Notes: generated by a model from the sequence alone, not told the origin. A stretch of 64,000 bases of DNA from Desulfurococcales archaeon (GCA_027083135.1 JALWQH010000020.1:1-64000), one strand, 5' to 3'; counted from the first letter of the stretch, positions 26,119-46,926 are shown. A program made the numbers and translations.

Positions 26119-26568
26119 CTAGTTTTCCCAGGTCTGTATATAGCGGCATTTACGGGGAGCTGTGCCTGACTCCATATCCCTTATAATCTCCTCCAGCAGT
26201 CTGCGGGGCTTGAAGTATTCGAGTATCTCCTCGGGTCTATGCCACTCTAGGACGACGTGTTTTTCAAGGGATCTGGGTTCCGCTGAAGATGATATGCCGC
26301 ATAGGAAGTAAAATACGAGTTCGTGTCTAAGCCTCCCCCGGAAATAATAGAAGTTCTCGTTGACTATGTAAAGCCTGCCCACCGTGACATGGACTCCAGC
26401 CTCCTCCATCATCTCTCTGGCCAGGCATAACGGCAGGTTTTCATATGTCTCCAGCCTCCCTCCCGGGAACCTGTAGAAGTTCCTCTGCCTTCCACGCTGG
26501 AATAACATGGCTTTATTCCTAGTGATTATGCATCTTGCAGCAACTTCTAGGTCTCTTCTCCTAGCCAT
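26119..26568 (-). CDS. Nudix hydrolase
   Basis: A protein of about 149 residues with a complete Nudix box: GGRLETYENLPLCLAREMMEEAGVHV (about residues 30-56; Gly, two Glu pairs and REMMEE match the consensus). Nudix enzymes hydrolyse nucleoside diphosphate derivatives. An in-frame GTG three codons upstream is possible, but ATG 26568 fits better. It lies 16 bp after the TorD-like gene and may be the last gene of the molybdoenzyme operon. Whether it acts on a molybdenum-cofactor nucleotide or is unrelated cannot be told. Confidence 0.82.
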   Translation of the reverse strand: MARRRDLEVAARCIITRNKAMLFQRGRQRNFYRFPGGRLETYENLPLCLAREMMEEAGVHVTVGRLYIVNENFYYFRGRLRHELVFYFLCGISSSAEPRSLEKHVVLEWHRPEEILEYFKPRRLLEEIIRDMESGTAPRKCRYIQTWEN

Positions 26569-26584
26569 GCCTAGCACCCGGGAT

Positions 26585-27268
26585 TCAGGCTAATCCTCCC
26601 TCTTCAGCTTTAATGAAGCTGTCGAGCGCCCTAACCAGATACACGTATGTCTGCAGCTCAGAATGCTTTGCCAGGCATTCTGAGAGCCTTGGAACCCATC
26701 TGGAGAGGCGGTGTATAAAGGAGGCGTATTTATTCAGGGATTCCTCACTCTCCTTCTCTGCGGCTTTTTCTAGAAGATATGCTGCGAACTCCAGCTCCAC
26801 TGATATGTGGTCGGGTGATGCTTCCCTCACCTTCACGCCGCTTGCCTCATAGAGGGCTGTTAGTGAGGCAAGCACGTCGAGCATGCTCTTAGTCTCCAAA
26901 TATCTGGGTGAAGACTGGGCTCCGGGAACCTCTATGAAACTGCTACCAGCCACCTCTCCAGGCTCAATATAGGAAGATTCCAGGGGAGGGCATGGAGGCC
27001 TAGGCAGGCCAAGCTCAAATGTGGAGACATATGATGCCTGAAACTCGTCTCTTCCAAGCCTACCTAGCTCTCTGCGGAAGGCCTCCTTAGCCTCCTCTAA
27101 AAGCCTGATAGCCTCACCTAAACTCTTCTCTCCAGCATTACTGAGTAGCTGTTGGAGGAGTTCTATTCTGCCTGGTATGAGGGGGACGTCATCATCGTAT
27201 GGGTAATCGAGGATCCTTGAGAACAGCCTGTAGATCTCTGCTTTAACCATAAGCTCAGCTTTATTCAT
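26585..27268 (-). CDS. TorD/DmsD-family molybdoenzyme chaperone
   Basis: A 227-residue all-helical cytoplasmic protein. The opening EIYRLFSRILDYPYDDDV, the central FQASYVSTFELGLPRPPCPPLESSYI and the helical C-terminus follow the TorD/DmsD/NarJ pattern. These chaperones bind the Tat signal peptide of a molybdoenzyme and assist cofactor insertion before export. The catalytic subunit of the same operon has a Tat motif, a good match. It follows the membrane subunit gene by 50 bp. The pairing is inferred from location. Confidence 0.82.
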   Translation of the reverse strand: MNKAELMVKAEIYRLFSRILDYPYDDDVPLIPGRIELLQQLLSNAGEKSLGEAIRLLEEAKEAFRRELGRLGRDEFQASYVSTFELGLPRPPCPPLESSYIEPGEVAGSSFIEVPGAQSSPRYLETKSMLDVLASLTALYEASGVKVREASPDHISVELEFAAYLLEKAAEKESEESLNKYASFIHRLSRWVPRLSECLAKHSELQTYVYLVRALDSFIKAEEGGLA

Positions 27269-27318
27269 GCATTAACCCCTGTTCAAACTGGTTATAGTGG
27301 TGAAAAAGAGTTGTTATT

Positions 27319-27822
27319 CTAGCTCCTAGGCATAGGTAGGCCTAGGAGCTTCAGCAGAGGCTCCATAACGCTGTGCCCCTGGGAGAGGTATCCGCCTGCA
27401 GCGCCAAGGGCTGTCACCAGGAACGCCCCTATCAGGGCCAGGATCACAGTATATGTTAGCGCAGCATTATCACTCCATACTTTTTCCTTTCTAGCCATGA
27501 CGGCATAATAGATTCCCAGATATGTGAAGAATGCTGCTATGGCGAAGGTTGTCTTGAATCTGAACCAGGCTGAGGCTGCGAAGGCTGATGCAGGGAAGTC
27601 GACCATGGCGCTGGCTCCAACTATTATTATAGCCCATACTGATAGCAGGGATAGTACGTGTATAGGCTTTGTGAGCCAACGCTCCGCGAACTCTCTCTTA
27701 CCTATTATTCTAGCTATCAGCCCCACTATTACTAGGAGGCTTACACTCATGGTTAATCCAACAGCGAAGTGTGCTGCTATGGGATGCCAGACAGGGTGAA
27801 GCGAGATGGGCATGACCATCAC
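27319..27822 (-). CDS. Small polytopic membrane protein, DUF2231-like, possible heme b anchor
   Basis: A 167-residue protein with about four hydrophobic helices. The N-terminus has three histidines (SLHPVWHPIAAHFAVGL, residues 8-18), followed by His in KPIHVLSLL (about 53) and SQGHSVMEP near the C-terminus. The pattern resembles DUF2231-type membrane proteins, some of which are suspected to bind heme b. Its place in the molybdoenzyme operon, where NarI/EbdC-like cytochrome subunits usually sit, suggests it passes electrons from the quinone pool. Heme binding is inference. The start overlaps the upstream gene by 4 bp. Confidence 0.6.
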   Translation of the reverse strand: MMVMPISLHPVWHPIAAHFAVGLTMSVSLLVIVGLIARIIGKREFAERWLTKPIHVLSLLSVWAIIIVGASAMVDFPASAFAASAWFRFKTTFAIAAFFTYLGIYYAVMARKEKVWSDNAALTYTVILALIGAFLVTALGAAGGYLSQGHSVMEPLLKLLGLPMPRS

Positions 27823-28037
27823 CTCCTCCTAGCTATTAGGGCTCCCAGCACCACTACCACCACCAGCAATATTACGGCATATGCTGTTTCCTTCCATAGC
27901 CATGAGGCCACTGATCTTGCTGCAGCCCCCTTAGCCGACTCATCCACTACTACTGCACCATAGATCAGCATGGCCATGAATGGTATTAGGCCGAGCATCG
28001 TGCCCCACGAGTATAGGATTTTTCTCCAGCTGCTCAT
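27819..28037 (-). CDS. Small membrane protein of molybdoenzyme operon
   Basis: A 72-residue protein with two hydrophobic helices (about 10-30 and 48-68) and a basic C-terminus (IARRR). No family recognised. It overlaps the ferredoxin-subunit gene upstream and the DUF2231-like gene downstream by 4 bp each, so translation is coupled across the three. A structural membrane anchor for the exported heterodimer is a reasonable guess; no cofactor-binding residue is obvious. Confidence 0.65.
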   Translation of the reverse strand: MSSWRKILYSWGTMLGLIPFMAMLIYGAVVVDESAKGAAARSVASWLWKETAYAVILLVVVVVLGALIARRR

Positions 28038-28984
28038 TTCTGTTCACCCATCCTGTGCGAGTAGAAGCTTGTGAGAACTCTGATCAGCTTCGAGCTTCTC
28101 CCCTTCTTTCTCTCAGCTTCCAGGATCTCCTTAACCCTCCATATATCCTTGCTGAACAATTCCTCAAGGTATTTCTTATCGTATCTTGGTTTCCCGTCAG
28201 GCCTAGGCGGAGTTAGAACGGGAGGCACGTAGAGCACCCTCGGCTTAGTATTGAGTTCTGGTAGGAGGGGTATGGCAACCTTATACTCCTTTATCAAAAC
28301 GTGTACAGGGCTGTCTGGATCCTCTATTCTGCCGAAGAACCTGGCTCTAGCAGGGCATACTTGAACGCATATTGGATCTAATCCCTGGTCGACGAGGGGA
28401 GCGCACATTATGCATTTGGATGGCGTTCCTAGCTTCAGGTTCCAGAAAATCCTCCTATACGGGCAGGCCTCGAAGCATGCCTGGCATCCCAGGCATAGCT
28501 GTGGGTCAAGCATGACTATGCCGTCCTTACGCTTGAATAATGCGTGGGAGGGGCAGCTTTCAACGCATGGAGGGTTTTCACAATGCATGCATTGGATCGG
28601 GAGGTAGAAGTACCAGGCATCCTTAGGCGTCTCGCCTACGCCTTGATCCCAGTTCCAGTTGGGCCCCCATTGAGGAGCAGGCTGAGGGGTTATGTCGGGA
28701 GGAGTCTTACCTGTAGTATTGTTCACCAGCTCCTCATATCTGAATCTGAAGTCCGGCTCATAGTCCTTCTTGCTCTGCCTCTCACCCTTCTTGCTCTTTT
28801 CCAACCAGTTCTTCGGGTATCCTGGCCCAGGCCTTGTCTCCGTTATGAGCCACCATGCATGCTCCGCTCCAGGCTCCTTCGAACTCCACCAAACCTTGCA
28901 TGCAATGGCGCATGCTTGGCATCCCAGGCACTTGTTCAAATCTACGACGAGTGCAGCCCCTTTATCCGGAGTGTTATCCGCCAT
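28034..28984 (-). CDS. Four-cluster ferredoxin subunit of type II molybdoenzyme
   Basis: A 316-residue electron-transfer subunit with four complete [4Fe-4S] motifs: CLGCQACAIACK (about residue 18), CMHCENPPCVESC (about 134), CLGCQACFEAC (about 164) and CIMC with CVQVC (about 190-212). The segment FYLPIQCMHCENPPCVESC and KEYKVAIPLLPELNTKP-RVLYVPP resemble the beta subunits of nitrate, dimethylsulfide and ethylbenzene enzymes (NarH, DdhB, EbdB). In those the third motif often has Trp or Tyr and holds a [3Fe-4S] cluster; here it has all four Cys. No signal peptide, so it would be exported with the Tat-bearing catalytic subunit. Confidence 0.88.
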   Translation of the reverse strand: MADNTPDKGAALVVDLNKCLGCQACAIACKVWWSSKEPGAEHAWWLITETRPGPGYPKNWLEKSKKGERQSKKDYEPDFRFRYEELVNNTTGKTPPDITPQPAPQWGPNWNWDQGVGETPKDAWYFYLPIQCMHCENPPCVESCPSHALFKRKDGIVMLDPQLCLGCQACFEACPYRRIFWNLKLGTPSKCIMCAPLVDQGLDPICVQVCPARARFFGRIEDPDSPVHVLIKEYKVAIPLLPELNTKPRVLYVPPVLTPPRPDGKPRYDKKYLEELFSKDIWRVKEILEAERKKGRSSKLIRVLTSFYSHRMGEQK

Positions 28985-29000
28985 GCCTGCTCACCCCCTC

Positions 29001-32000
29001 CTACTTGGCCTTCTCCACCTCCACGCTTGTGTCACACTCGTTGCCTGTTACCCCCCAGAGGTTCCAGCCATACTTGAGGTGATAGTAGGGTGGATTAGGT
29101 TCCTCGGGATATGTGACTGCCTGCGTCGGCTTGGGTCTTATAGGGGTTACACTGTTGAACCATCCTTTAACAAAAGTCACCATCTCGGCTCCATCAGGTA
29201 TCCAGATCTCCCCGGGTTTGACTGCAGGGGTTACACGGGCTGGTGCTACGAGTTCGCCGTAAATGTTGTAGACTCTAACCATGTCCCCATCCTTTATTCC
29301 CCTAGCCTCAGCATCCTTCTTGCTCATTGAGACCACGGCCCTATATCTCTGCAGCCTTAGGAGAAGATCAAGATCCCTGAATGTGGAGTGGGTTCCCCAT
29401 CTCTCGTGAGGCGTGTTCAGCTTGATTGGAGCAGGCTTACCGTTGGGCAGTGGGTCTGTTTCAGGCTCCCTGTATATGGGGAGTTCCTGGCCCAGGGTTA
29501 GGAAGTAGCTGTGATCAATGTAGAACTGCTGCCTGCCTGTAAGGGTCTTCCCTCCCTTAGGGATCACGCCTAGATATTTTGATATGAATAGCTTGGGGAC
29601 CTTGAACACCACGTTGAGTTCAGGCTTATTGACCAGTATGACAGTAGTGTAGTGGAGCTTTCCTCCAGCAGGCCACGGTATCTTCTGCTCAACATTATCC
29701 ACCCATGGTGTTAGTGGGCGGGGCCTTGTCTGGGCTGCTGGGAATGGCACTGGATGCTTTCTTATCAGCTCTAGGAGGCCTGCAATATATCCGTCTATGT
29801 CTCCCTGCAGTAATCTTCTTTCAACAAGGAATCTCACCTCTGGGGCAAGCTGGTTCTTATACTTATCATATAGCTCTGCGTCGGGGTACATTATGGGGCT
29901 GTTCTTAAGTATGAAGTGCGCCGCCATTTCTGGGGTTTCGAGGCATCCCTCCCTAGCATACCCTTTGAAGTAGGGGTTCTCCTTGCACTCCGCGTCCACG
30001 AAGTCTCCATAGATCTTAGCATAGTCCCGGTCAACATTGTATTTCGGGTCATGCCATTTGACCCCGCCTCTCCTAGCAGCCTCCTCGCTTACAGCCTTGG
30101 CCAGCTCTTTGAAGACATCGAAGTCATGCTTGGACTCACCTATAGGCTCTATAGCAGGGTTGAATGCCTGTATATATACGTGCATAGGCGTAGTTTCCAC
30201 ATCGAACTTCTCGTACCATGTGGCTGCAGGCAGTATGTAGTCTGCAAACACGGCTGTGCTGTTGACCCTGAAGTCTATGACTACAACTAGTTCCAGGAGA
30301 TCAGGGTTGCTGAACCATTCCTTAACCTTGAATCCGCCTTTAGCCTGGTTGAGGTAGTTTCCACGCCATATGAACATGGCGTGAGGTCTTTTCGGCGGCT
30401 GAGGATAGATTGGCATCCAGCCCTTAGCCATGGCTTTGATCAGCAGGTAGTTCCTATAACCCCTCTCATTGCGTGGATCAGGGCTTACAGGCTCCTGGAA
30501 TCTTCCCGGCAGGGGGCCTGGAAGCTTCGTTATGCTTCCATCCTCTATCCCCTTAACTATTTCATCCAGGTTTTTCCCCAGCTTCCATAATTCAACATAG
30601 TAGTGCGCCCAGGTGAACAGGGTTCCATTCTCGTTCCTCGTCTTAAGTATCCTGCCATACTTGCCTAATCCTTTAAGCCACACCTTGTACTGGCCTGTAT
30701 ACTGGCTGAAACCTGCGCCAGGCCTCCCAATATTCCCTGTAAGTGCTAGTAGGAGTATCATGGATCTATTGTTAATGTCATTATTGTACCAGTGGTTTGC
30801 CCCGCCTCCCTCTATTATATGGGTGGGCCTTGTCCTGGCGATCTCCTCTGCCAGGCTTCTAATAGTTGATGCTGGAACCCCCGTGATCTTCTCAGCCCAC
30901 TCTGGAGTCTTATCCCTCAGCTTCTCCCTGAGAATCGTGAAGACTGTCTTAACCTTGACTGTGCTTCCATCCTTAAGCTTAACCGACCACTCGCCTTCCA
31001 ATGATGGATTTATATTATACTTGGCTAGGTCCAGGGTCTCCCTCTCATCTCCCAGGCATCCTGGAGGGATCACGGGTTTACCCGTATTCTGATCCCACAC
31101 GTATAGTTTGAAGGGGCTTCCCCTCTCCACCATGTCGCTTTCTCTGAGAAACCTGCCGTTATCTGTTCTAACTAGGAAGGGGAGGTCGGTGTATGTTTTC
31201 ACGTATTCCTCATCGTACAGCTTGTTCTCCACTATGTGGTGTATCATGGCGTTAACCATGGCTGCATCCGTGCCAGGCTTGATGCTTATGAACTCGTCTG
31301 CGATCCTAGCCGTGGCTGTGAAATCAGTCCCTATGTAGACGATCTTTGTACCCCTATACTTCGACTCAACTATGAAGTGCGCCGCAGCAATCCTGCTTTC
31401 AGCAGCATTGGATCCCCAGAGTATTATGAGCTTAGCCCTCGTCCAATCCCACTCCTCAGACTCCTCTGTCTGGGTTCCCCAGGTCATAGGCTCCCCTGGA
31501 GGCAGATCGCAGTACCAGTCGTAGAAGCTGAGGGGACCTGAGGCTCCAAGCACGTTGGCAAACCTGTATCCGGCGCCTGCTGACACATAGTTGTATGCAG
31601 GTATGGGTGAGAAGAACACTATGGTGTCTGCCCCCTCCCTCTGTATTATGTCAAGGAGCTTTGATGCTATCTCCCTCTTAGCCTCATCCCATGTTATCCT
31701 CTTAAACCTGCCCTGCCCCCTATTTCCAACCCTTTTATACGGGTATCTGACCCTCATCGGCCCATGCACGTATCTAACATAGGATGCCCCCCTGACGCAT
31801 CCCCTAGGATTATACGCGTCCCCTGCAACAGGATCATATACATTATAGTCTGAGGCCTGTATTAGGCCTACTATAGTGTTGCCTCGGACAAAGGCATTCC
31901 AGCCGCAGGCCTGGGTACAGTTAGCCGCGCAGACTGATCTCACAACCTTATCATAGGCTATTCTGCCAGCGTACATTCTAAGAGCTCTCCTATGAACTAT

Positions 32001-32147
32001 GGGTTCAAGGTAGCGGTAGGCAGGCCTCGTCCTCCTAAGCTCCTCGAGAGACGCCACCAGAACGGCTGAAGCAGTGCCTGCTGCAAGAAGCTTTAGGAAC
32101 TCCCTCCTACTCATCCCGCCTTCATCGGCATCCTCCAAGCAGACCAC
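29001..32147 (-). CDS. Molybdopterin oxidoreductase catalytic subunit, type II (NarG-like), Tat-exported
   Basis: A 1048-residue Mo/W-bisPGD enzyme. A Tat motif SRREFLKLL precedes a hydrophobic stretch. The N-terminal cluster motif is VCAANCTQACGW with CVRG about 35 residues on, that is Cys where type II enzymes often have His. SFYDWYCDLPPGEPMTWG (about residue 205) is the type II signature, with an Asp as the expected Mo ligand, followed by WGSNAAESR and PGTDAAM. Substrate (nitrate, selenate, chlorate, sulfur compounds or other) cannot be assigned. A long C-terminal domain ends near PDGAEMVTFVKGW. GTG 32147, TTG 32138 (behind AGGTGG) and ATG 32114 are possible starts. First gene of the respiratory operon. 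Confidence 0.9.
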   Translation of the reverse strand: MVCLEDADEGGMSRREFLKLLAAGTASAVLVASLEELRRTRPAYRYLEPIVHRRALRMYAGRIAYDKVVRSVCAANCTQACGWNAFVRGNTIVGLIQASDYNVYDPVAGDAYNPRGCVRGASYVRYVHGPMRVRYPYKRVGNRGQGRFKRITWDEAKREIASKLLDIIQREGADTIVFFSPIPAYNYVSAGAGYRFANVLGASGPLSFYDWYCDLPPGEPMTWGTQTEESEEWDWTRAKLIILWGSNAAESRIAAAHFIVESKYRGTKIVYIGTDFTATARIADEFISIKPGTDAAMVNAMIHHIVENKLYDEEYVKTYTDLPFLVRTDNGRFLRESDMVERGSPFKLYVWDQNTGKPVIPPGCLGDERETLDLAKYNINPSLEGEWSVKLKDGSTVKVKTVFTILREKLRDKTPEWAEKITGVPASTIRSLAEEIARTRPTHIIEGGGANHWYNNDINNRSMILLLALTGNIGRPGAGFSQYTGQYKVWLKGLGKYGRILKTRNENGTLFTWAHYYVELWKLGKNLDEIVKGIEDGSITKLPGPLPGRFQEPVSPDPRNERGYRNYLLIKAMAKGWMPIYPQPPKRPHAMFIWRGNYLNQAKGGFKVKEWFSNPDLLELVVVIDFRVNSTAVFADYILPAATWYEKFDVETTPMHVYIQAFNPAIEPIGESKHDFDVFKELAKAVSEEAARRGGVKWHDPKYNVDRDYAKIYGDFVDAECKENPYFKGYAREGCLETPEMAAHFILKNSPIMYPDAELYDKYKNQLAPEVRFLVERRLLQGDIDGYIAGLLELIRKHPVPFPAAQTRPRPLTPWVDNVEQKIPWPAGGKLHYTTVILVNKPELNVVFKVPKLFISKYLGVIPKGGKTLTGRQQFYIDHSYFLTLGQELPIYREPETDPLPNGKPAPIKLNTPHERWGTHSTFRDLDLLLRLQRYRAVVSMSKKDAEARGIKDGDMVRVYNIYGELVAPARVTPAVKPGEIWIPDGAEMVTFVKGWFNSVTPIRPKPTQAVTYPEEPNPPYYHLKYGWNLWGVTGNECDTSVEVEKAK

Positions 32148-36737: not shown

Positions 36738-38159
36738 TTAGGGTAGTGCAGCCCTGGCCATTAGCTGGAGGGCGCCTAGGCCGAGCACCACCGATATTAT
36801 TGCAGCCACTACTACGACTGAGGCTAGTTCAGGAGGCTCCCCTATCCTGCCTGGTGTTTCAGGCTCCTCGAAGTACATGGCTTTTATGATCTTCGCATAG
36901 TACGCTACGGATATCACGGTGTTTAGCAGTGCTATTAGGGCTAGCCAGGGAGCCGCATAGGCTACTGAGGCGAAGAGGTATAGCTTGCTCCAGAACCCTA
37001 TGATCGGCGGCATACCCATGAGGCTGAAGAGAAGGGTTGTGAATCCCGCAGCAGTGTACGGCATCTTCTTGCCTAGTCCTTTGAGATCTGAGAGCATTAC
37101 TCCTCCAAGCTTCTCCTTAACTGCGGCTAAGGCTGTGAAGCTGCCAACCTTGCCGAAAGCATATGAGGCGAAGTGCATTGCAAGCCCCATTAAAGCCCAG
37201 TCAGGCCTCATACCCGAGATCGCAGCTAATCCTGCGAACCCTACGAGGAAGTATCCTGCATGAGCGATGCTGCTGTACGCCATCAGCCTCTGAGCATTAT
37301 CCTGCACTAGTGCTCCCAGGTTACCGTAGGTCATTGTGAGTATTGCGAAGAGGGCCATTAGGCCCAGCCACTCGTAGGGATAGTTGCCTGCTATCGGTGC
37401 CACCAGCCTATATATTGCTAGTACAGCCATGGCCTTGGATGCCATGGACACGTATGCTATCAGGGTTGGGTGGACTCCTCCATAAGTGTCGGGGAGCCAT
37501 CCCTGGAAGGGGAAGACACCCATCTTGAACCCTGCCGCAGCTACTACGAGGCCTATGGTCGCTGAGACGAAGGTCACACTCATCCCTACTGGGACTAGGC
37601 GTGGAGAGACCACCAATCCCCTATTCATGGCGAAGACCAGTATTATGCCTAGGAATAGCAGGGTCGATGAGGCTGCACCCATTACAGCATACTTCACTGA
37701 GCCCTCGGCTGAAGCCTCATCCTTTGCAAGCGCTGTCATAGCATAGGATGCTACTGACGCCAGTATCCATGCAGACATTGCTACCAGCAGGTTTGACAGG
37801 AATATTATGGAGTATACGCCGAAGAGTATCAGCATTGTGAGCCCATAGAACGCTGAGGCTGTCCCCCACTTCTCAACCACTGGTCCTGCAGCATATATTG
37901 CCAGCATGGCTGCGATGGATAGTATGAGTGCGAAGAGGGCTCCATAGGCATCCAGGGTTAGCGTGGAGCTGTATATGGGTTCTGGAACCCTGCCTATCAT
38001 TGAGGAGAAAAGCAGGGATGAGAGCACTGATAATATTAGTGATGATGCTACGGCAGTCATCCAGGCATATGTCCTGTTCCTTATGAGGGGTATGAATAAT
38101 GCTGCTACGAGGGATACGGTGAACATTGCATCCGCATATATGTCGGGCGAGACGCTCAT
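36738..38159 (-). CDS. nuoN: NADH-quinone oxidoreductase-type subunit N
   Basis: A protein of 473 residues with about 14 transmembrane helices, the antiporter-like subunit N of complex I. The Proton_antipo_M pattern includes FKMGVFPFQGWLPDTYGGVHPTLIAYVSMASKAMAV (Lys and Pro-rich channel segment), MAYSSIAHAGYFLVGFAGLA and MGMPPIIGFWSKLYLF. The reading frame is open 213 bp further upstream, but ATG 38159 overlaps the stop of nuoL as ATGA and gives the standard N-terminus MSVSPDIYAD, so the longer form is rejected. Last gene of the complex I operon. Confidence 0.92.
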   Translation of the reverse strand: MSVSPDIYADAMFTVSLVAALFIPLIRNRTYAWMTAVASSLILSVLSSLLFSSMIGRVPEPIYSSTLTLDAYGALFALILSIAAMLAIYAAGPVVEKWGTASAFYGLTMLILFGVYSIIFLSNLLVAMSAWILASVASYAMTALAKDEASAEGSVKYAVMGAASSTLLFLGIILVFAMNRGLVVSPRLVPVGMSVTFVSATIGLVVAAAGFKMGVFPFQGWLPDTYGGVHPTLIAYVSMASKAMAVLAIYRLVAPIAGNYPYEWLGLMALFAILTMTYGNLGALVQDNAQRLMAYSSIAHAGYFLVGFAGLAAISGMRPDWALMGLAMHFASYAFGKVGSFTALAAVKEKLGGVMLSDLKGLGKKMPYTAAGFTTLLFSLMGMPPIIGFWSKLYLFASVAYAAPWLALIALLNTVISVAYYAKIIKAMYFEEPETPGRIGEPPELASVVVVAAIISVVLGLGALQLMARAALP

Positions 38160-40276
38160 ATTATCCACCCCACATACCATATTACTATTAGGAGGAGTAC
38201 GACTAGTCCAAGCCACATGGTTAGCACGTAGTGGTTCAATACGCCTGTCTGGAGGCGCCTCACCCTCCTTGAGACGGAGAGAGTGCCGTTGACGAGCTTC
38301 ACGTGGAAGCCTACATCTATGGCCTTCTCGGCTGTAGCGTATAGGCCTCTGGCCGACGACATGAAGAACCATGGCATGAAGCGGTGGTAGAATGAGTCGA
38401 CTAGGGCGTTGTTAACGTACTTGTAGGTCACGTCTGCTAGGGCTCTCCCACCCTTAACGAATATCCAGTAGTATATACTGTTTAGATACCATCTATCGTA
38501 GAGGAACTTGTGGAGCCATGTGAGGCTGGGGCTCTTAACCACGTAGTCGTAGGGCCTCATAAGCTTCGCCTGATACAGGTATACTGCTATTCCCAGGCCT
38601 GTGAGGGCTAGGGCCACGCTTATGGATGTCAGGGATAGGCTCATGGATATGTGTAGGGCTTCTCCATGCATGGCTAGTGTTGCTCCAGGTATCAGTGTCT
38701 CCAGTCTATCCTGGATCCAGGGCCAGGCGAGGCCTATGATGAGGCTTAGGAGGGCAAGGGTTAGGTAGGGGAGCAGCATGAGTGGATGGGCTTCGTGGAG
38801 GTGCTCTGCATGCTCCTGTACACGGTGGCTTGGCTTATAGTAGAACACCATTATTATCATCCTGAACGTATATGCTGCTGTGAGCAGGGCTGTTATGACT
38901 CCCAGTAGCCAGGGTATGGTTGCACCAGCCTCATGGGCTACATCGAGTATCGTGTCCTTCGACCAGAAGCCTGCGAAGGGAGGTATGCCTGATAGGCTTA
39001 GGCCTGCAAGCAGCATTGAGATGGCTGACCACTTCATGTATTTCGCCAGGCCGCCCATATCATCCATGAATCTGGAGTGGACTGCATGTATAACTGCGCC
39101 GGCTATTAGGAATAGGGCTGCCTTGAACACGGCGTGGCTTACTAGGTGTGAGAGGCCTGCGAACACTGCTAGCGGCCCCTCACCCATCATGCCTCCTGCA
39201 GCTATGCCTAGGAACATGTATCCCAGCTGGCTGGCTGTGGAGAATGCTAGGACCAGCTTTAGCTCCCTGGCCACGATGGCCATGGTTGCCATCATGAATG
39301 CCGTGAACCCGCCTATCAACGCCACCCATCCGAAGAAGTGTATGAAGGTATTGTAGGCTGCTATTCCCATAGTGTCTCTGACAACATGGGATGCTACAAC
39401 GAATATGGGTGTGAATCTCAGCAGGAAGTATACTCCGGCTTTAACCATGGTTGCAGCATGTATGAGGGCTGAAACTGATGTCGGGCCTGTCATAGCTGTG
39501 ACAAGCCACTCGTGGAATGGGAACTGCGCGCTCTTAGCCATTGCCCCCAGAATGAAGAATGCTAGGAATGCCGCCAGTATGCCTCTAGTGTATAGTCCTC
39601 CGGCCCATACTTCGGGGTGAGCTACCATGGCGTGGAAGCTCGTAGTGCCTAGGAGATAGTGGATCGCAGCTGTTCCTATAAGTAATCCTACGTCGCCTAG
39701 CCTTGTGAATACTAGGGCTCTTAGGCCTGCATGGCTTGGCGGGAAGCACATGGAGATGCCTAGGGCTTTCCTACCGGGATCGCCTACGCATCTCTCCTCC
39801 TCATCCGTGAACCAGTGGCCGATGAGGGCGTAGCTGGCTAGGCCTGTGCCCTCCCATCCAATGAACATTGCTATCAGGTTGTCTGAGAGCACTAGTAGCT
39901 GCATGCTTCCCACGAAGAAGCTGAAGAAGAACCAGTATCTCGTCTGCCCTGGATCCCCGCCCATGTATTCCAGGCTGTACACGGCTATGAGGAAGCTGAG
40001 CCATGAGACAACCAGGGCCATTATGGTTGAAAGAGTGTCGGCATAGTAGCCTATGGTGACGTTGAGGCTGGGAACCCAGGTGAAACTATGCTCCAGGATC
40101 TCCCCGTGGGTTAGGGTTTTCAAAGCTATTAGGGTTGAATAAATAGCGGCTGTGAATATGGAGAGTACTCCTGCCAGCCCTTTAACCCTCCCTTTAACAG
40201 GGTGCAGCAGTAGTACTAGGGCCGCCCCCACATAGGGGGCCAGCCAGGCCGCCACGTAGCTTGCAGGTCCCTCCAT
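38156..40276 (-). CDS. nuoL: NADH-quinone oxidoreductase-type subunit L
   Basis: A 706-residue antiporter-like subunit L. Landmarks: FVGSMQLLVLSDNLIAMFIGWEGTGLASYALIGHW in the N-terminal domain, SAQFPFHEWLVTAMTGPTSVSALIHAATMVKAGVYFL, FSTASQLGYMFLG and LSGIPPFAGFWSKD. The long C-terminal part would hold the lateral helix typical for subunit L. It conducts protons or sodium across the membrane. Start ATG 40276; 35 bp after nuoM. It ends in the ATGA overlap with nuoN. Confidence 0.95.
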   Translation of the reverse strand: MEGPASYVAAWLAPYVGAALVLLLHPVKGRVKGLAGVLSIFTAAIYSTLIALKTLTHGEILEHSFTWVPSLNVTIGYYADTLSTIMALVVSWLSFLIAVYSLEYMGGDPGQTRYWFFFSFFVGSMQLLVLSDNLIAMFIGWEGTGLASYALIGHWFTDEEERCVGDPGRKALGISMCFPPSHAGLRALVFTRLGDVGLLIGTAAIHYLLGTTSFHAMVAHPEVWAGGLYTRGILAAFLAFFILGAMAKSAQFPFHEWLVTAMTGPTSVSALIHAATMVKAGVYFLLRFTPIFVVASHVVRDTMGIAAYNTFIHFFGWVALIGGFTAFMMATMAIVARELKLVLAFSTASQLGYMFLGIAAGGMMGEGPLAVFAGLSHLVSHAVFKAALFLIAGAVIHAVHSRFMDDMGGLAKYMKWSAISMLLAGLSLSGIPPFAGFWSKDTILDVAHEAGATIPWLLGVITALLTAAYTFRMIIMVFYYKPSHRVQEHAEHLHEAHPLMLLPYLTLALLSLIIGLAWPWIQDRLETLIPGATLAMHGEALHISMSLSLTSISVALALTGLGIAVYLYQAKLMRPYDYVVKSPSLTWLHKFLYDRWYLNSIYYWIFVKGGRALADVTYKYVNNALVDSFYHRFMPWFFMSSARGLYATAEKAIDVGFHVKLVNGTLSVSRRVRRLQTGVLNHYVLTMWLGLVVLLLIVIWYVGWII

Positions 40277-40311
40277 GGCTCCACTACCCCTCCTCCACTA
40301 TCATTATCCCT

Positions 40312-41862
40312 CTAGATCCCGTATACTGTGTGGAAGTAGGCTAGCATCGGGTCAAGCATGGTGTAGACGACGAAGAATGCTACCACACCTATTGCTGCGA
40401 GCACTGCCATCGGTACTAGTAGGCCTGGGCTAGCCTCATGGGCGTCTTCAAGGTGTTTGGGTAGGGGTCCATAGAACGCCCTCTTCATTGTTAGGAAGGC
40501 GTATGCTGTTGAGAGGCCTATGCCTATCATTAGGAATACACCTATGGTTACAAATGCTGCTGCTCCGTGATCCATGCCGTACTGTACTGCGCCTCTAACT
40601 ATCAGGTACTCGCTCCACAGTCCAGGGGTCGGAGGGATGCCTGTTATGAACATGAATCCTAGGAGGCCTAGTGCAGCGGTGAACGGCATCTTGGTGGCTA
40701 GGCCGCCCATCTTGGGTATGGCTCTCAGACCATGCAGCGTTGCTATTAATGTACCGGCGGTGAGGAAGAGGATGGCCTTTCCGAAGGCGTGGACAAGGTA
40801 GTGCAGTATTGCGCCGCTCATGCCGTATGCTGTTATGGTTGAGAGTCCTAGGAGCAGGTACCCCATCTGCGAGACGCTGCTATATGCTAGTAGGCGCTTG
40901 AAGTCCGTCTGGACCAGTGCCATGAAGCCTCCGTAAATCATGGTTAGCAGCGCCCATCCGATGAGGTAGGGTGCAGCGCTTGCGAACGTGGATGGGAATA
41001 ATGTATACACTATTCTGATGAGCATTGCGCCGCCTATGCCGATGAGGTTGGGGCTCAGCAGGGCTGAGATCGGTGTGGGGGCCTCTGCATGCGCGTATGG
41101 CAGCCATATATGTACGCCGAAGACAGCCATCTTGACCAGCAGCCCTACAACCATTAGGATTAACGCTGTTTTAAGCAGGGCTCCGCTTAGAGCAGCGTCC
41201 GCCAGGCCTAGCAGCATCTTACCTGTAAACGGGTTAAAGAAATCGAAGCCTGCCTTGAAGCCTACTGCTAAGGCTCCCAGCAGGAAGAGTACTGCTCCTA
41301 CATGAGTCCACAGCAGGTAGAGTATAGCTATTCTAACCCTGTCTCCATATCCATAGAAGGCTATTAGGAGGAAGCTAGGTATCAGCGTTAGCTCTAGGAA
41401 CAGGTAGAACTCTATGGTATTGGTGCTTAGCAGCGTTCCTATCATTGCTGCGGCGAAGAGCGTGTAGAGGAAGAAGTAGCTTCCCCAGCTCGGAGGCTTC
41501 TCGCCCTTCTCATGCATCTCCTCTATCCTGTGCCTCATGTAAGGCACCGAGTATACGGCGGTGAAGGCTGTGACCGCTGCTATGCTTATTAATACTGGGA
41601 AGGCTACTGCATCCATTATGAAGGCAAAGTTGCCTAGCGTTGGAACAGTCCATACTTCTGGATCCCTGATCACGCTGCCTAAGCCGTACTTGTATGCCAG
41701 TATCAGGAAGACGAGCAGCGAATATCCTAGGGCGCCTGCATTTATGGTTGCATGTATCTCCGGGCTTACCTTATCCCTCATAAGCCATGAGGCTATGGCT
41801 ACTGCTACGGGTACCACTACTGTTGAGAGGAGAGCCGGGTTACCTAGGATTATTTCATTCAC
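40312..41862 (-). CDS. nuoM: NADH-quinone oxidoreductase-type subunit M
   Basis: A 516-residue antiporter-like subunit with about 14 helices. The core pattern KMAVFGVHIWLPYAHAEAPTPISALLSPNLIGIGGAMLIR (subunit M form, with AEAPTP) is decisive against L or N, and YSSVSQMGYLLLGLS and GIPPTPGLWSEYLI follow. It lies directly behind nuoK. As M precedes L and N here, the order of the distal antiporter genes is M-L-N. Confidence 0.95.
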   Translation of the reverse strand: MNEIILGNPALLSTVVVPVAVAIASWLMRDKVSPEIHATINAGALGYSLLVFLILAYKYGLGSVIRDPEVWTVPTLGNFAFIMDAVAFPVLISIAAVTAFTAVYSVPYMRHRIEEMHEKGEKPPSWGSYFFLYTLFAAAMIGTLLSTNTIEFYLFLELTLIPSFLLIAFYGYGDRVRIAILYLLWTHVGAVLFLLGALAVGFKAGFDFFNPFTGKMLLGLADAALSGALLKTALILMVVGLLVKMAVFGVHIWLPYAHAEAPTPISALLSPNLIGIGGAMLIRIVYTLFPSTFASAAPYLIGWALLTMIYGGFMALVQTDFKRLLAYSSVSQMGYLLLGLSTITAYGMSGAILHYLVHAFGKAILFLTAGTLIATLHGLRAIPKMGGLATKMPFTAALGLLGFMFITGIPPTPGLWSEYLIVRGAVQYGMDHGAAAFVTIGVFLMIGIGLSTAYAFLTMKRAFYGPLPKHLEDAHEASPGLLVPMAVLAAIGVVAFFVVYTMLDPMLAYFHTVYGI

Positions 41863-41868
41863 TTCTTC

Positions 41869-42171
41869 TCACCCCTTCATCTTGGATGCACGTGTTACAT
41901 CGGTTGTTCCCAGGATGCGGAACATGAATACTATGATGGGAACCGTGACACCTATCTCGGAGCTTGTGAGGGCTATTACGAATAGGGCTAGGATCATGCC
42001 CTGAAGAGCCCCTATCGAGGAGGCCATGGCGAGCAGAAATAGGAGTTCAGCGTTGAACATCAGCTCCAGTGATATCAGTATCCTGACGGCGCTTCTATGA
42101 GCTATGGCTCCATAAGCCCCTATGGCGAAGAGCATTGCCGCGGTTACATAGTACATCTCTATGGTCATCAC
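41869..42171 (-). CDS. nuoK: NADH-quinone oxidoreductase-type subunit K
   Basis: A 100-residue protein with three hydrophobic helices, including RILISLELMFNAELLFLLAMAS with the conserved membrane Glu pair used for proton transfer and LTSSEIGVTVPIIVF (third helix, Glu conserved). The length is typical. ATG overlaps the nuoJ stop by 4 bp. Confidence 0.95.
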   Translation of the reverse strand: MMTIEMYYVTAAMLFAIGAYGAIAHRSAVRILISLELMFNAELLFLLAMASSIGALQGMILALFVIALTSSEIGVTVPIIVFMFRILGTTDVTRASKMKG

Positions 42172-42665
42172 TTCTTCTCACCTCTCGCTACAACTATCCC
42201 CTCAATCATTATGGTGGCTAGGGAGGCTACTACTAGGAGCAGTGGGAACCAATAGTCATCTATGAACTCCTTGGCAACCCTGCCTAGATCAATGTTGATT
42301 GACGGGAGAACTCCACCTATACCTGTAGACACGGCAATCATGTAGAATACTAGGCCTAGCAGCACGGCGTTCAGGACGCTTACAGTTGCCAGGCTTCTCA
42401 TGAGGCGTGGCTCCTGCCTCATCATGACGACGCTGAACACCATGAATGTTACAGTGGCTCCGACATAGACGAGAAGGTGGAAGGCAGCCACGTATCCGTA
42501 GCCTAGGAGGGCTATGAGGCCTGCCACGGATGTGCCTGTGAAGCCGAGGGCTACTGCAGCGTACACTGCCTGCTCCGTGCTGACTGCAACTAGCCCTGAG
42601 CCCAGGGCTATTAGGCTTAGGGCCAGGTAGGCGAACTCCTCTAAGACGCTGTTACTCGGGCTCAT
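42168..42665 (-). CDS. nuoJ: NADH-quinone oxidoreductase-type subunit J
   Basis: A 165-residue protein with five hydrophobic helices and the subunit J pattern AVYAAVALGFTGTSVAGLIALLGYGYVAAFHLLVYVGATVTFMVF (the tyrosine-bearing third helix). It overlaps nuoI by 14 bp and nuoK by 4 bp. It belongs to the proton-pumping membrane arm. Confidence 0.93.
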   Translation of the reverse strand: MSPSNSVLEEFAYLALSLIALGSGLVAVSTEQAVYAAVALGFTGTSVAGLIALLGYGYVAAFHLLVYVGATVTFMVFSVVMMRQEPRLMRSLATVSVLNAVLLGLVFYMIAVSTGIGGVLPSINIDLGRVAKEFIDDYWFPLLLVVASLATIMIEGIVVARGEKK

Positions 42666-43155
42666 GCTTCAACCCCTCCTCCTCGTCGAATTCAACCTTA
42701 ACTTTACGTCCTCCCTCCTCCTCTGCAGGAGATTTCCACTCCCTGTCAAACCTGCCTGGAAGAGGCAGGTAGATCATCCCCTCCATATCCTCCTCGGCAA
42801 TATCATGCACAGGAGTGTGCTCCAGGGCGTTGACGGGGCATATGTCGACGCAGAAGCCGCAGAAGATGCATCTCTGATAATTTATGCCTGGATACATCTT
42901 CTTCTCTCCTGGAAGCTTGTACATCTTCATAGCTGATGCTGGGCACACCTGTGCACATAGGCTGCAGCTAATGCACTTATCCTTGTGTAGCCTTATCATC
43001 CCCCTATAATTCCTGCCTAGATCTATCACGTATTCAGGGTACCTGACAGTCATCCTGGGTTTCGCGAACAGGTATCTTAGCCCCGTCGCTATGGCTGCTG
43101 CATGCATCTTGAGGGAATACAGGGGATTTCTCCTTATCCTGTCAGCTATGCTCAT
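42652..43155 (-). CDS. nuoI: NADH-quinone oxidoreductase-type subunit I (ferredoxin-like)
   Basis: A protein of about 167 residues with two [4Fe-4S] motifs: CISCSLCAQVCPASA and CIFCGFCVDICPVNALE, that is, clusters N6a and N6b carrying electrons to subunit B. The open frame reaches further upstream, but an ATG at 43155 (MSIADRIRRNP) or a GTG at 43164, which overlaps the nuoH stop as GTGA, give the usual N-terminus. An acidic C-terminal extension (about 35 residues rich in Glu) follows the fold. Confidence 0.93.
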   Translation of the reverse strand: MSIADRIRRNPLYSLKMHAAAIATGLRYLFAKPRMTVRYPEYVIDLGRNYRGMIRLHKDKCISCSLCAQVCPASAMKMYKLPGEKKMYPGINYQRCIFCGFCVDICPVNALEHTPVHDIAEEDMEGMIYLPLPGRFDREWKSPAEEEGGRKVKVEFDEEEGLKHEPE

Positions 43156-43160
43156 CCCTG

Positions 43161-44186
43161 TCACACCCCTGCTATTAGTAGTCCGAAGCTCCATAGTGCC
43201 GCTATGAGTGAGAGGGGTACGAGCCTCCTCCACCCCAGGCTTAAGGCCTGGTCAAGCCTGTAGCGCCCGTAAACCCCTCTCAGGAACACTGCGAATAGGA
43301 GTAGGATATAGGTCTTGACGAAGAGCATCACTCCCCCCAGCGCGGGATATATGCTTCCAAGCCCATGGATGACGGGGAGCCAGCCGCTCAGAAACATTTC
43401 CACGAATACGAGCATTAGAACATAGAGATATAGATAGCTTGCCCCCATGACGAGGCCGTAGAGTATGCCTGAATACTCTGTGAACGGTCCTGCCACTATT
43501 TCCTGCTCTCCCTCCACTATGTCGAAGGGAAGCTTGGATGATGCCATCAGCATGGCTACGAAGAACACGAATCCGGCTATAGGGTTAATGATTATTCCGG
43601 GAAGGCCTAGAGAGGCCTGCTTCTCAACCATGACTGAAAGGTCCAGTGTCTTATAGTAGAGCGCGGCAGCAAAGGCTGATATGAATAATGCTACCTCGTA
43701 GCCCACAGTCATGAAGGCCTCTCTAATGCCTCCCACCAGGGTGAACTTATTGTTGGCTCCCCACGCCATCAATATTATTACTACTGGTATCAGCGCTCCT
43801 AAGGCCAGGACTAGGGGCAGGCTGTAAGAGACCGCTACGCCCACATAGCTGGGGGCTGCAGGTATGAATATGAATGGTAGAACCGTGACGGTTAGGGCTA
43901 GGGCAGGAGTAGCCAGGAAGACTATTTTGTCAACCTGCCTCGGTATTATGGGCTCCTGGAAGAAGAAGCGGAGGGCATCAGCTATCATCTGCAGGGCCCC
44001 TCCTATCTGCTTAGACACGTAGAGGGGCCCGTATCTGAGCTGAACCTTGGCTGCCATCTTCCTCTCAGCCCATATTAGGGTTAGAAGCACTACGAGCCCT
44101 ATGGTTAGGCCTGGATATATGAATGGTGAGAAGAAGTATGGTTCGAGGATGAAGTTTATTAGAGGGTCTAGTGGCCCAAGCATCAC
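43161..44186 (-). CDS. nuoH: NADH-quinone oxidoreductase-type subunit H
   Basis: A 341-residue polytopic protein with about eight helices. The signature loops are visible: WAERKMAAKVQLRYGPLYV (quinone-channel entrance, with the usual ExKxxxxxQxRxGP), DALRFFFQEPIIPRQ and LPFDIVEGEQEIVAGPFTEYSG. It connects the hydrophilic arm to the pumping arm. GTG 44186 overlaps the nuoD stop (GTGA), with an ATG one codon on. Confidence 0.95.
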   Translation of the reverse strand: MMLGPLDPLINFILEPYFFSPFIYPGLTIGLVVLLTLIWAERKMAAKVQLRYGPLYVSKQIGGALQMIADALRFFFQEPIIPRQVDKIVFLATPALALTVTVLPFIFIPAAPSYVGVAVSYSLPLVLALGALIPVVIILMAWGANNKFTLVGGIREAFMTVGYEVALFISAFAAALYYKTLDLSVMVEKQASLGLPGIIINPIAGFVFFVAMLMASSKLPFDIVEGEQEIVAGPFTEYSGILYGLVMGASYLYLYVLMLVFVEMFLSGWLPVIHGLGSIYPALGGVMLFVKTYILLLFAVFLRGVYGRYRLDQALSLGWRRLVPLSLIAALWSFGLLIAGV

Positions 44187-45412
44187 CTATCACCCTCCGG
44201 GGGGAAGTAGTCTATGCTTCCATATATTACGGGGAGATCCATGAAGCGTGCACCCCTGGTGAGGTGGCGGAAGAGCACGACGTTCCTGAAGGCGGGGGTT
44301 ATGATCCTCACCCTGTACGGCTTAGTGTCACCCGTGCTTACTATGTGGTAGAACACTTCGCCATGCCCCATCTCCCCTCTAGCCACAGCCTCGCCTGCAG
44401 GGGGCTTCAGCCTTATGAAGGCTCCTGGAAGCTTGATCCTACCCGTCTCAGCAACGTGTTTCCTCAGAGCCGGGGGTATGAGCCTCATATACTTGTCGGC
44501 GAAGAATGGGCCTTGAGGCATCTTGTCTAATACCTGTTTTATTATCCTCATGCTCTGCTTTATCTCCTCTATTCTGACTAGAAGCCTGGCCAGCGAGTCT
44601 CCCTCCTCCATAACCGGTATCTCGAAGTCTAGTTCAGGGTATGCTCCATACTTCTCGGCTATGCGTGCATCATAGTGGACGCCGCTGGCCCTCAGGTTCG
44701 GGCCTACTATTCCAAGCCTGCTTGCATCATTCTTGGTTAGCACGCCTACCTCCCTGAACCTAGCCACGGTTACAGGGTTGTAGACGAATATCTTCATGTA
44801 GTCTTCAAGCCTTCTCTCCATGTATCTTATTGCCTTGAGGGCCTTCTCCTTGAATCCCTGGGGTAGATCCCTTCTAACCCCTCCAGGTATTATGTATGTG
44901 TGGGTGAGCCTCGCCCCTGTAAGCTCTTCTGCAAGCTGAACCCATATTTCACGGTCCCCGAAGCTCCACATATACATGGTTGAGTGGTTGATGAATATGC
45001 CTGTAAGCCCGAAGCCGTAGAGGTGGCTTGAAATCCTATTTATCTCTGCTAGAAGTGTGCGGAGATACTTCGCTCTTAGAGGAGCCTCTACTCCAAGCAT
45101 CTGCTCTACTGCTCTGACGTAGGGCCATGTTATATTGGCTGAATCTATTATCGTCGCCCTCTCGAAGAGGGGTATGCTCTTCAAGTACTCCCTTGTCTCT
45201 GAGAGCTTCTCCATTGTTCTATGAACATAACCTATGTCGGGGTCAGCGTTAACTATTATGTCTCCATCCAGCCTCACTACTATTCTCATGTGTCCTGAGG
45301 CTGGGTGCTGGGGGCCTATGAAGATCTCGTATAGCTCCATCCCCTCAGCATCCCTACCCATGGGCCTGTACCTGAAGCCCGGCTCCTTGATCGTGCCGGG
45401 CCCGTAGCCCAT
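44183..45412 (-). CDS. nuoD: NADH-quinone oxidoreductase-type subunit D (49 kDa)
   Basis: A protein of about 409 residues related to the NiFe-hydrogenase large subunit, which forms most of the quinone site. Landmarks: IGPQHPASGHMRIVVRLDGD (with the QHPASGH motif), DPDIGYVHRTMEKL, GITGIF-like LTGIFINHSTMYMWSFGDR, GPNLRASGVHYDAR and GEMGHGEVFYHIVSTG. The ORF is open to 45505, but ATG 45412 just downstream of the nuoC stop fits. C and D are separate genes, unlike the fusion in enterobacteria. Confidence 0.95.
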   Translation of the reverse strand: MGYGPGTIKEPGFRYRPMGRDAEGMELYEIFIGPQHPASGHMRIVVRLDGDIIVNADPDIGYVHRTMEKLSETREYLKSIPLFERATIIDSANITWPYVRAVEQMLGVEAPLRAKYLRTLLAEINRISSHLYGFGLTGIFINHSTMYMWSFGDREIWVQLAEELTGARLTHTYIIPGGVRRDLPQGFKEKALKAIRYMERRLEDYMKIFVYNPVTVARFREVGVLTKNDASRLGIVGPNLRASGVHYDARIAEKYGAYPELDFEIPVMEEGDSLARLLVRIEEIKQSMRIIKQVLDKMPQGPFFADKYMRLIPPALRKHVAETGRIKLPGAFIRLKPPAGEAVARGEMGHGEVFYHIVSTGDTKPYRVRIITPAFRNVVLFRHLTRGARFMDLPVIYGSIDYFPPEGDR

Positions 45413-45419
45413 ATCCGTC

Positions 45420-45908
45420 TCACTGCTTCTGCTGCCTTGTGAGGTCAACGATGAATCCCTCCACCTTGATCCTGTAATCCTTGCGTAGAGGCGGGATCCC
45501 CTCATAGTCTGAGGGGAGGAGCAGGTGCCTGAGGTCAGGGTGCCCCTCGAACACTACTCCCAGCATCTCCCATGTCTCCCTCTCCGGGAACTCGGCGCTA
45601 GGCCACACGTCTATTAGTGTGGGCACTCTTGGATCATCTCGGGGCACCCTTGTGTATAGTTTAATGATAATTGATTTCAGGTCAGGCTCATAGCTCTCGG
45701 CATGCCAGGAGACCTCCATCTCCTTCTCCTTGATCCAGTCTACACCTTCCACGCTTGCAACGTGGTCGAAGCCCATTTCAACAAGCCTTCGGGCAGCCTC
45801 TACGAGGCTTGAAGCCTCTACCCTGACGCTATAGTAGTTGGGCTTCTCCTCCCTGATCTCAGCTGCAATGTCTCCGAGCTTCTCCTTGAGGTCTTCCAGC
45901 AGCCCCAT
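45420..45908 (-). CDS. nuoC: NADH-quinone oxidoreductase-type subunit C (30 kDa)
   Basis: A protein of about 162 residues. Subunit C motifs: DHVASVEGVDW, IIKLYTRVPRDDPRVPTLIDVWPSAEFPERETWEMLGVVFEGHPDLRHLLLPSDYEG, a near-complete match to the family core (WxxAxWxERExxDmxGixFxGHPdLrrlll). ATG 45908 behind GGTGAGG is chosen; the frame is open to 45944. It lies between nuoB (69 bp) and nuoD (7 bp). Confidence 0.95.
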   Translation of the reverse strand: MGLLEDLKEKLGDIAAEIREEKPNYYSVRVEASSLVEAARRLVEMGFDHVASVEGVDWIKEKEMEVSWHAESYEPDLKSIIIKLYTRVPRDDPRVPTLIDVWPSAEFPERETWEMLGVVFEGHPDLRHLLLPSDYEGIPPLRKDYRIKVEGFIVDLTRQQKQ

Positions 45909-45977
45909 CCTCACCGCCCCTGGGGGGTTCTGAGGCATGGGCATCCTCTTGAAGAGGGGTTTAAATCATTAATGCAG

Positions 45978-46538
45978 CTACTCATCTGTCCCCACCTCTC
46001 CAGCACTTTCATACTTCTTCTCCCTCTTCAGGTATCTGGCCTCCCTGATCTTACGCTGCAGTAGTACTATTGCCCTGGCCACTGCTTCAGGCCTCGGGGG
46101 GCATCCAGGTATGAAGACGTCTACGGGGAATATTTCATGGGGCCTGACAATATTGTAGCTGTTGTAGAATATTCCGCCGTCTATGGCGCATGCCCCCATA
46201 GCTATGACGAACTTGGGGTCAGGCATCTGCTCGTAGACTATTCGCGCCGCCTTAGCCATCTTCTTGGTCAGCGTACCCTCTATCATTAATAGGTTGCATT
46301 GCCTTGGGGAGAGGAATGGTAGGAAGCCGAACCTCTCAGCATCGAAGCGGGGATTCGCTGCCGCGGCGAACTCTGCGCCGCAGCATGATGTTGTGAAGTG
46401 GACGGGCCATAGTGAGAATGCTATGGACCAGTCCCTAACACTTCTCAGAGGGGTCTTGTTTACAAGCCAGTCCGCAGCCTTGCGGGCTGATTCCTCCAAT
46501 CTGCCTATGAATATCCATCCTGATCGCGGGCAATCCAT
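45978..46538 (-). CDS. nuoB: NADH-quinone oxidoreductase-type subunit B (PSST)
   Basis: A 186-residue Fe-S protein that carries cluster N2. The four Cys ligands are present: SCCGAEF (two adjacent Cys), MGACAIDGG and IPGCPPRPEA. WPVHFTTSCCGAEFAAA matches the family. The start at ATG 46538 follows the nuoA stop by 4 bp. Confidence 0.96.
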   Translation of the reverse strand: MDCPRSGWIFIGRLEESARKAADWLVNKTPLRSVRDWSIAFSLWPVHFTTSCCGAEFAAAANPRFDAERFGFLPFLSPRQCNLLMIEGTLTKKMAKAARIVYEQMPDPKFVIAMGACAIDGGIFYNSYNIVRPHEIFPVDVFIPGCPPRPEAVARAIVLLQRKIREARYLKREKKYESAGEVGTDE

Positions 46539-46542
46539 GATG

Positions 46543-46926
46543 CTACGCCTCCTCAGGCTTCCTGAAACGCCATAAATCTATGTTTCCAGCCTGCCTAACC
46601 GCGTATATGAATGGAGGTGTGGCTATCCCGATTATGGCGAGGAAGAGGTAGAACATGTTGGGGATGCTTCCCCCATAGTAGGGGAAGAGGAATATGAGTG
46701 CGAGGATGGGTTCGAAGGCGAGGAAGATTATGAGGTAACCGTAATACTGCATGGGGAGCCAGCTTCTAGCCCTCCCTTTAGGCGGGTTTCCAGCCTCGTA
46801 CCTCATGGTCTTCATGGGGTACTCCGGCCCCCTGGCTATGAGGCGCGCCAATGCTACGACGAGGAGGAGCACCGCCATGTTGATCACTAGGACAAGGGAT
46901 ATTGAGATGATGGCTTCGCCTGCCAT
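46543..46926 (-). CDS. nuoA: NADH-quinone oxidoreductase-type subunit A
   Basis: A 127-residue protein with three hydrophobic helices. The first loop KTMRYEAGNPPKGRARSWLPMQYYGYLIIFLAFEP includes the conserved YE-G-PxG and FxxxFDxE-type segments (here FLAFEPI). First gene of the complex I operon; a TATA box lies 40 bp upstream. Confidence 0.93.
   Translation of the reverse strand: MAGEAIISISLVLVINMAVLLLVVALARLIARGPEYPMKTMRYEAGNPPKGRARSWLPMQYYGYLIIFLAFEPILALIFLFPYYGGSIPNMFYLFLAIIGIATPPFIYAVRQAGNIDLWRFRKPEEA

Follow-up and report, generated by a model that had tools for sequence, protein, structure and literature searches.

How does a molybdoenzyme whose operon lacks NarI draw electrons from the quinol pool of an archaeon? 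This question is raised by a locus in a 64,000-nucleotide stretch of DNA from a thermophilic Desulfurococcales archaeon, referred to here as the window. The known electron routes into type II molybdoenzymes run via NarI, via Rieske/cytochrome b or via c-type cytochromes, and those into related molybdoenzyme families via NrfD/DmsC-like proteins. In the window, two small membrane proteins are encoded alongside the enzyme, and no described enzyme of this kind uses such a small two-protein anchor. The reading that we favour, at roughly even confidence, is that the locus encodes an outward-facing, Tat-exported and quinol-oxidising terminal reductase from an undescribed type II clade, which most likely converts nitrate to nitrite.

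Gene layout and relatives of the operon

The window contains a five-gene unit on the minus strand (32147-26585), consisting of genes for a catalytic subunit (A), an iron-sulfur subunit (B), a 72-aa and a 167-aa membrane protein and a chaperone, all of which are present. The relevant features are as follows.

29001..32147, minus strand: A, catalytic subunit, type II (Asp-ligated) DMSO-reductase family, Tat signal SRREFLK; TIGR03479 E 4e-231 (below its cut-off), Pfam Molybdopterin and Molydop_binding
28034..28984, minus strand: B, iron-sulfur subunit with four complete Cys sets; TIGR03478 E 3e-88 (below the curated subfamily cut-off)
27819..28037, minus strand: 72-aa two-helix membrane protein, motif WGTxLxLIPF, no His; no Pfam match
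27319..27822, minus strand: 167-aa four-helix membrane protein, remote DUF2231 likeness
26585..27268, minus strand: TorD/NarJ-type assembly chaperone; PF02613 E 7e-18, TIGR03482 E 6e-15 (the latter below the curated subfamily cut-off)
26119..26577, minus strand: NUDIX hydrolase (PF00293), co-directional and downstream of the unit
36738..46926, minus strand: complex I-like operon; Pfam types NuoA, B, D, H, J, K, L, M and N

A first-pass annotation had described a type II molybdoenzyme operon with unusual membrane subunits at 26119-32147, with all genes joined by 4-bp overlaps. We confirmed the genes and the extent of the five-gene unit (26585-32147); the NUDIX gene is absent beside the relatives' operons and its product is probably outside the complex. 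Overlaps of 4 bp were found only for B/72-aa and 72-aa/167-aa, and gaps separate A from B (16 bp), the 167-aa gene from the chaperone gene (50 bp) and the chaperone gene from the NUDIX gene (7 bp). The likely start of A is the in-frame ATG of MSRREFLK (about 32114), and that of the 167-aa protein is one of the ATGs that closely follow the GTG. The GC and GC3 values of the operon genes are typical of the genome. Immediately upstream, on the plus strand, lies a gene for a divergent PAPS-reductase-like/PRK08557-type protein (32276-33604).

A scan of 84,980 genomes with A returned two close relatives, both bacterial MAGs: L016 (Thermodesulfatator sp.) and L017 (Ca. Desulfaltia sp.), with A subunits 69-72% identical to that of the window. 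Both carry the identical five genes in identical order. Their 72-aa homologues (38% and 31% identity, respectively) occupy the same operon position and share the motif WGTxLxLIPF, and their 167-aa homologues are 49% and 48% identical to the window protein; in all, the search yielded just three homologues for each of the membrane proteins. Since this gene order is kept in two bacterial MAGs, the membrane pair is a conserved module, and the comparison supports the view that it travels with A between Archaea and Bacteria. The L016 locus is flanked by ORFs that, read by eye, resemble bacterial hslVU, which makes its bacterial origin credible.

The two closest archaeal relatives, L011 and L012, belong to the same order as the window archaeon and encode A subunits that are about 73% and 70% identical, together with B and the chaperone, but they have no small membrane genes between these and no visible membrane partner. 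A search of both genomes (incomplete, 78-82%) with a four-helix profile gave no match, and thus A-B may not strictly need the pair. The chaperone homologue ends the unit in L011, L012, L016 and L017 alike. The clade of A is rare among the genomes sampled, at 3/229 in the window's class, 7/395 in the bacterial phylum of L017 and, at the level of an ortholog, 1/41 in the Thermodesulfatator class. A plasmid search with the four-helix protein and a viral-contig scan with A gave no match. We rejected a 70-aa ORF beside haloarchaeal narG as a counterpart of the 72-aa protein because it does not share the WGTxLxLIPF motif.

Catalytic and iron-sulfur subunits

In a maximum-likelihood tree of 31 catalytic subunits, the window, L011, L012, L016, L017 and five bacterial enzymes (L026-L030) formed one clade (support 100/100), sister (99/98) to a group of PcrA, haloarchaeal NarG, ClrA/EbdA and NarG. 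SerA, DdhA and NxrA were left out of the trees; NxrA scored low in a PDB search with A (204 bits). The placement was unchanged without long branches, and constrained joint clades were rejected for haloarchaeal NarG (AU p 0.0026), PcrA (0.0199) and NarG (0.034). Against TIGR01580, A reached 450 bits for a cut-off of 1084. These data support a position of the clade outside the sampled characterised clades, namely NarG, haloarchaeal NarG, PcrA, ClrA and EbdA. The three enzymes with both small genes form a single subclade (95/94 and 96/95). The phylogeny suggested at first pass gave A a clade of its own, and a placement within a characterised clade, with both membrane genes already described there, was not found. 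We know of no biochemistry for any member of this clade.

A carries YDWYCDLPPGEPMTWG, in agreement with the NarG/EbdA-type signature noted previously. The reported Cys in place of the common His in the first cluster motif was also found: the window motif reads CAANCTQAC, and 10/10 members of the clade use Cys as first FS0 ligand where NarG, haloarchaeal NarG, PcrA, ClrA and EbdA use His, which makes the Cys a clade trait. The solved structure of a NarG variant (3ir5) has Cys where 1r27 has His, indicating that the FS0 site tolerates this ligand. All ten members also have WYCD aligned with NarG D222, the Asp Mo ligand in the conserved YDWYxD region. The NarG pocket residues N52, Y220, D222, H546, H1092 and H1098 (mature numbering, verified on the E. 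coli sequence) are retained throughout the clade. Several of them are missing in ClrA and EbdA, and the pocket is thus of the NarG/PcrA and not of the hydrocarbon-oxidising kind. Cys at FS0 also occurs in another, distinct type II-like clade (L032, L033, L034 and L038) that lies outside all references used; its hosts belong to the Thermodesulfatator class, plus one genome of the window's class.

The four full Cys sets ascribed to the ferredoxin subunit were borne out in B. The position in question is Cys in the five-member subclade, Trp in NarH, Tyr in haloarchaeal NarH and ClrB, His in EbdB and Ala in PcrB and the sister clade. From these complete sets, B is predicted to bind four [4Fe-4S] clusters, not three plus a [3Fe-4S] cluster. 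By analogy, a full Cys set in the last site would fit an NrfD/PsrC-type partner. The C-terminus of B reads YPTWK[IVL] in clade members without the membrane pair and this tail is missing in those with it, a pattern that hints that the tail belongs to a different membrane partner.

The membrane pair and the source of electrons

The first-pass annotation had named a His-bearing DUF2231-like protein and a 72-residue protein as membrane subunits. Both are real genes conserved in two MAGs, but the DUF2231 likeness is remote. The match to PF09990 had an E value of 0.63 for one 167-aa homologue and of 0.002, over the full length, for the three-sequence consensus, which at 18.6 bits stays below the Pfam gathering score of 26.4. 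The 167-aa protein has an HPxxxHF motif on helix 1. Four helices are predicted, and a PDB fold search with the weak AF2 model (pLDDT 63.5) gave no match below E 0.001; the three-sequence profile matched PDB sequences at chance level only. We know of no function for the DUF2231 family, and our literature search found no paper linking DUF2231 to molybdopterin or molybdoenzymes.

The only invariant His residues of the 167-aa protein are H13 and H18, five residues apart on helix 1; D75 is also invariant. H55 and H150 are lost in L017, and the 72-aa protein has no conserved His. Positive charges are concentrated in loops 1-2 and 3-4, so that by the positive-inside rule both ends of the protein, together with H13, H18 and D75, are predicted to face outside, on the side of the Tat-exported A-B. 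As the invariant His are confined to what is predicted to be the outer end of helix 1, a heme-free site of the NrfD/PsrC kind is more likely than hemes like those of NarI. The quinone site of PsrC is located at the P-side within TMH1-4, where it includes His21 and adjoins a [4Fe-4S] cluster (PMC8076601).

We propose that the 167-aa four-helix protein, packed against its two-helix partner of 72 aa, would hold A-B on the outer membrane face and oxidise quinol there. Electrons would pass through the four [4Fe-4S] clusters of B to FS0 of A and on to Mo-bisPGD. The reaction would in itself be electroneutral; energy would be conserved at an earlier point in the chain, by the complex I of the same window, the likely quinol supplier.

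Judged by its gene content and relatives, the source genome (1.75 Mb, 57 contigs, 99.6% complete, 1.6% contaminated) belongs to a crenarchaeal class, probably Thermoproteia in GTDB terms. It encodes complex I, SDH, Tat, Moco enzymes, UbiD, UbiX and a siroheme-route heme cluster. Using phmmer with few references, together with motif scans, we found no match in it to NarI, NrfD, an EbdC-like subunit (haloarchaeal query), Rieske, cytochrome b, CyoB or CydA, no c-type cytochrome, no terminal oxidase (heme-copper or bd) and no ORF with at least two CxxCH motifs. NuoE/F/G also had no match in the genome (E. coli NuoF/G queries included), and the NuoC and NuoI positions of the complex I-like operon (36738-46926) were not identified. 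A second molybdoenzyme, PhsA-like, has its own cytochrome b-type gamma subunit. No other donor was found in these searches, which leaves the four-helix protein as the best candidate for a subunit that oxidises quinol and as the only visible candidate link between the quinol pool and A-B in this cell. The earlier suggestion of a respiratory complex with its own quinone link therefore gains from the co-travelling pair, the position of A among type II enzymes outside the sampled clades and the lack of an alternative donor in these searches; the quinone role of the pair is our inference.

Three further loci are of note. A heme O synthase gene (TIGR01473, above cut-off) occurs in the source genome (L164:2651-3532; G000:C24, 42.7-43.5 kb) although no heme-copper/bd oxidase or Rieske protein was found there. 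The siroheme decarboxylase subunits AhbA and AhbB are apparently fused in one 327-aa ORF (L165:15665-16648; G000:C29), adjoining hemA, hemB, hemL, hemC and two heme-type radical SAM genes. In another genome (L013:3932-6907; G035), a molybdopterin catalytic gene with one in-frame TAG, possibly an error, a pseudogene or read-through, lies beside an NrfD-like gene.

Two other accounts of the pair have to be weighed. The 167-aa protein could be a quinol-oxidising subunit with heme b, functionally a small equivalent of NarI or FdnI, as its four helices, the several His of the window protein and the complete siroheme-route heme pathway would allow. Indeed, since heme is made in this cell, one b heme in this protein is possible. 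However, H13 and H18 alone are invariant and sit at one end of one helix, and the 72-aa protein has no conserved His, which suits a NarI-like heme pair poorly; the heme idea raised for the 167-residue protein is thus weakened, and we consider it unlikely. It is also rather improbable, in our view, that the two proteins only anchor or assemble A-B and that the real donor is another soluble or membrane carrier. The lack of the pair in L011 and L012 speaks for such an arrangement, as does the sister clade, in which Rieske and cytochrome b genes stand in the same cluster, as in haloarchaeal nar clusters. Against it, the genome yielded no bc1-like complex, no c-type cytochrome and no further known donor subunit. 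A bolder reading, to which we give somewhat less than even odds, is that the pair forms a new class of heme-free quinol-oxidising module. It would have replaced Rieske/cytochrome b in one outward-facing type II lineage and been passed as a unit between Archaea and Bacteria, and it would provide a first function for the DUF2231-like fold.

Substrate, direction and comparison with known systems

The first-pass annotation had left the substrate open, and the relatives' neighbourhoods and the pocket residues now narrow it toward nitrate. HAO-family octaheme cytochrome genes, or contig-end fragments of them, occur within a few kb in all eight bacterial loci. In addition, a NapC/NrfH-type tetraheme cytochrome is encoded in L016 and L017, and a histidine kinase with a Tll0287-like sensor is common to L017 and L026. 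Taken together with the NarG pocket residues, the HAO-family genes make nitrate the likeliest substrate. HAO-family octahemes beside nitrate reductases have been proposed to reduce nitrite in ammonifying thermophiles, in species using Nap (PMC5276818, PMC5317091, PMC6896113). For the DNRA thermophiles and alkaliphiles T. dismutans, D. alkaliphilus, Caldithrix and Deferribacter, the enzyme described in the literature is Nap and not the present one. No recognised nitrite-handling gene was found in the archaeon, which may release nitrite; this is a weak point of the nitrate reading.

The lack of such a gene would also suit another oxyanion (perchlorate/chlorate, selenate or arsenate) as the substrate, an outcome that we judge less probable than not. 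PcrA is the best PDB sequence match of A (551 bits), which keeps a chlorine oxyanion possible, and archaeal (per)chlorate reduction has been reported, according to titles cited in PMC6650914. This reading has to contend with the HAO-family neighbours in all eight bacterial loci and with the retained NarG pocket residues, as PcrA differs in the surrounding motifs (WYGDHPT, TQHWYY). The enzyme might instead run oxidatively, for example as a dehydrogenase or nitrite oxidase that passes electrons into quinone. Its relatives EbdA and NXR run in this direction, and a four-cluster B could suit a lower potential. We consider this very improbable, given that A lacks several pocket residues of EbdA, that the searches revealed neither a terminal oxidase nor another high-potential acceptor and that the HAO-family adjacency in the relatives suits reduction. 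On an Alisedimentitalea plasmid (L071:6119-11648), a deep-branching type II A-B lies beside a chlorite dismutase family gene, a chaperone and a cytochrome c, and is possibly an undescribed (per)chlorate reductase on a conjugative plasmid.

If our reading is correct, a small separate membrane pair would be an unrecorded electron entry route in an archaeon with seemingly few other respiratory parts. It would also open DUF2231-like proteins to functional study for the first time and offer a simple setting in which to test how a quinol site made of four helices operates. With this clade, the known span of probable nitrate reductases from hot, anoxic environments becomes wider.

Haloarchaeal pNarGH resembles the window system in its outward-facing type II A-B without NarI and with a chaperone in the cluster, and its Rieske and cytochrome b genes form an arrangement common to the sister bacterial clade. 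It differs in A (41% identity), in His at FS0, in Tyr in the last B site and in having an EbdC-like subunit and no two-helix/four-helix pair. PcrAB, which scores highest among the solved relatives (42% identity in the aligned columns), is likewise a periplasmic A-B, but has His at FS0, Ala in B and WYGDHPT where the window has WYCDLPP, and it branches separately (joint clade rejected at AU p 0.02). NarGHI shares N52, Y220, D222, H546, H1092 and H1098 with the window A, which in contrast lacks NarI, is Tat-exported, is about 200 residues shorter and falls in a separate clade (AU p 0.034). Trimers of the EbdABC/ClrABC/DdhABC type have a heme-binding gamma subunit, and the haloarchaeal EbdC-like query had no match in the window genome. 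DUF2231 (PF09990) is related at most through a weak full-length profile match below the Pfam cut-off, with HPxxxHF on helix 1. The likeness to NrfD/PsrC would be one of analogy, in a His on helix 1 and an Asp that are both predicted to lie on the outer side, next to a [4Fe-4S] cluster; those proteins have eight or more helices (two four-helix bundles, 8-10) compared to four, and no sequence relation was found. In conclusion, the window encodes a conserved cross-domain variant of these enzymes, plausibly with a new quinol module.
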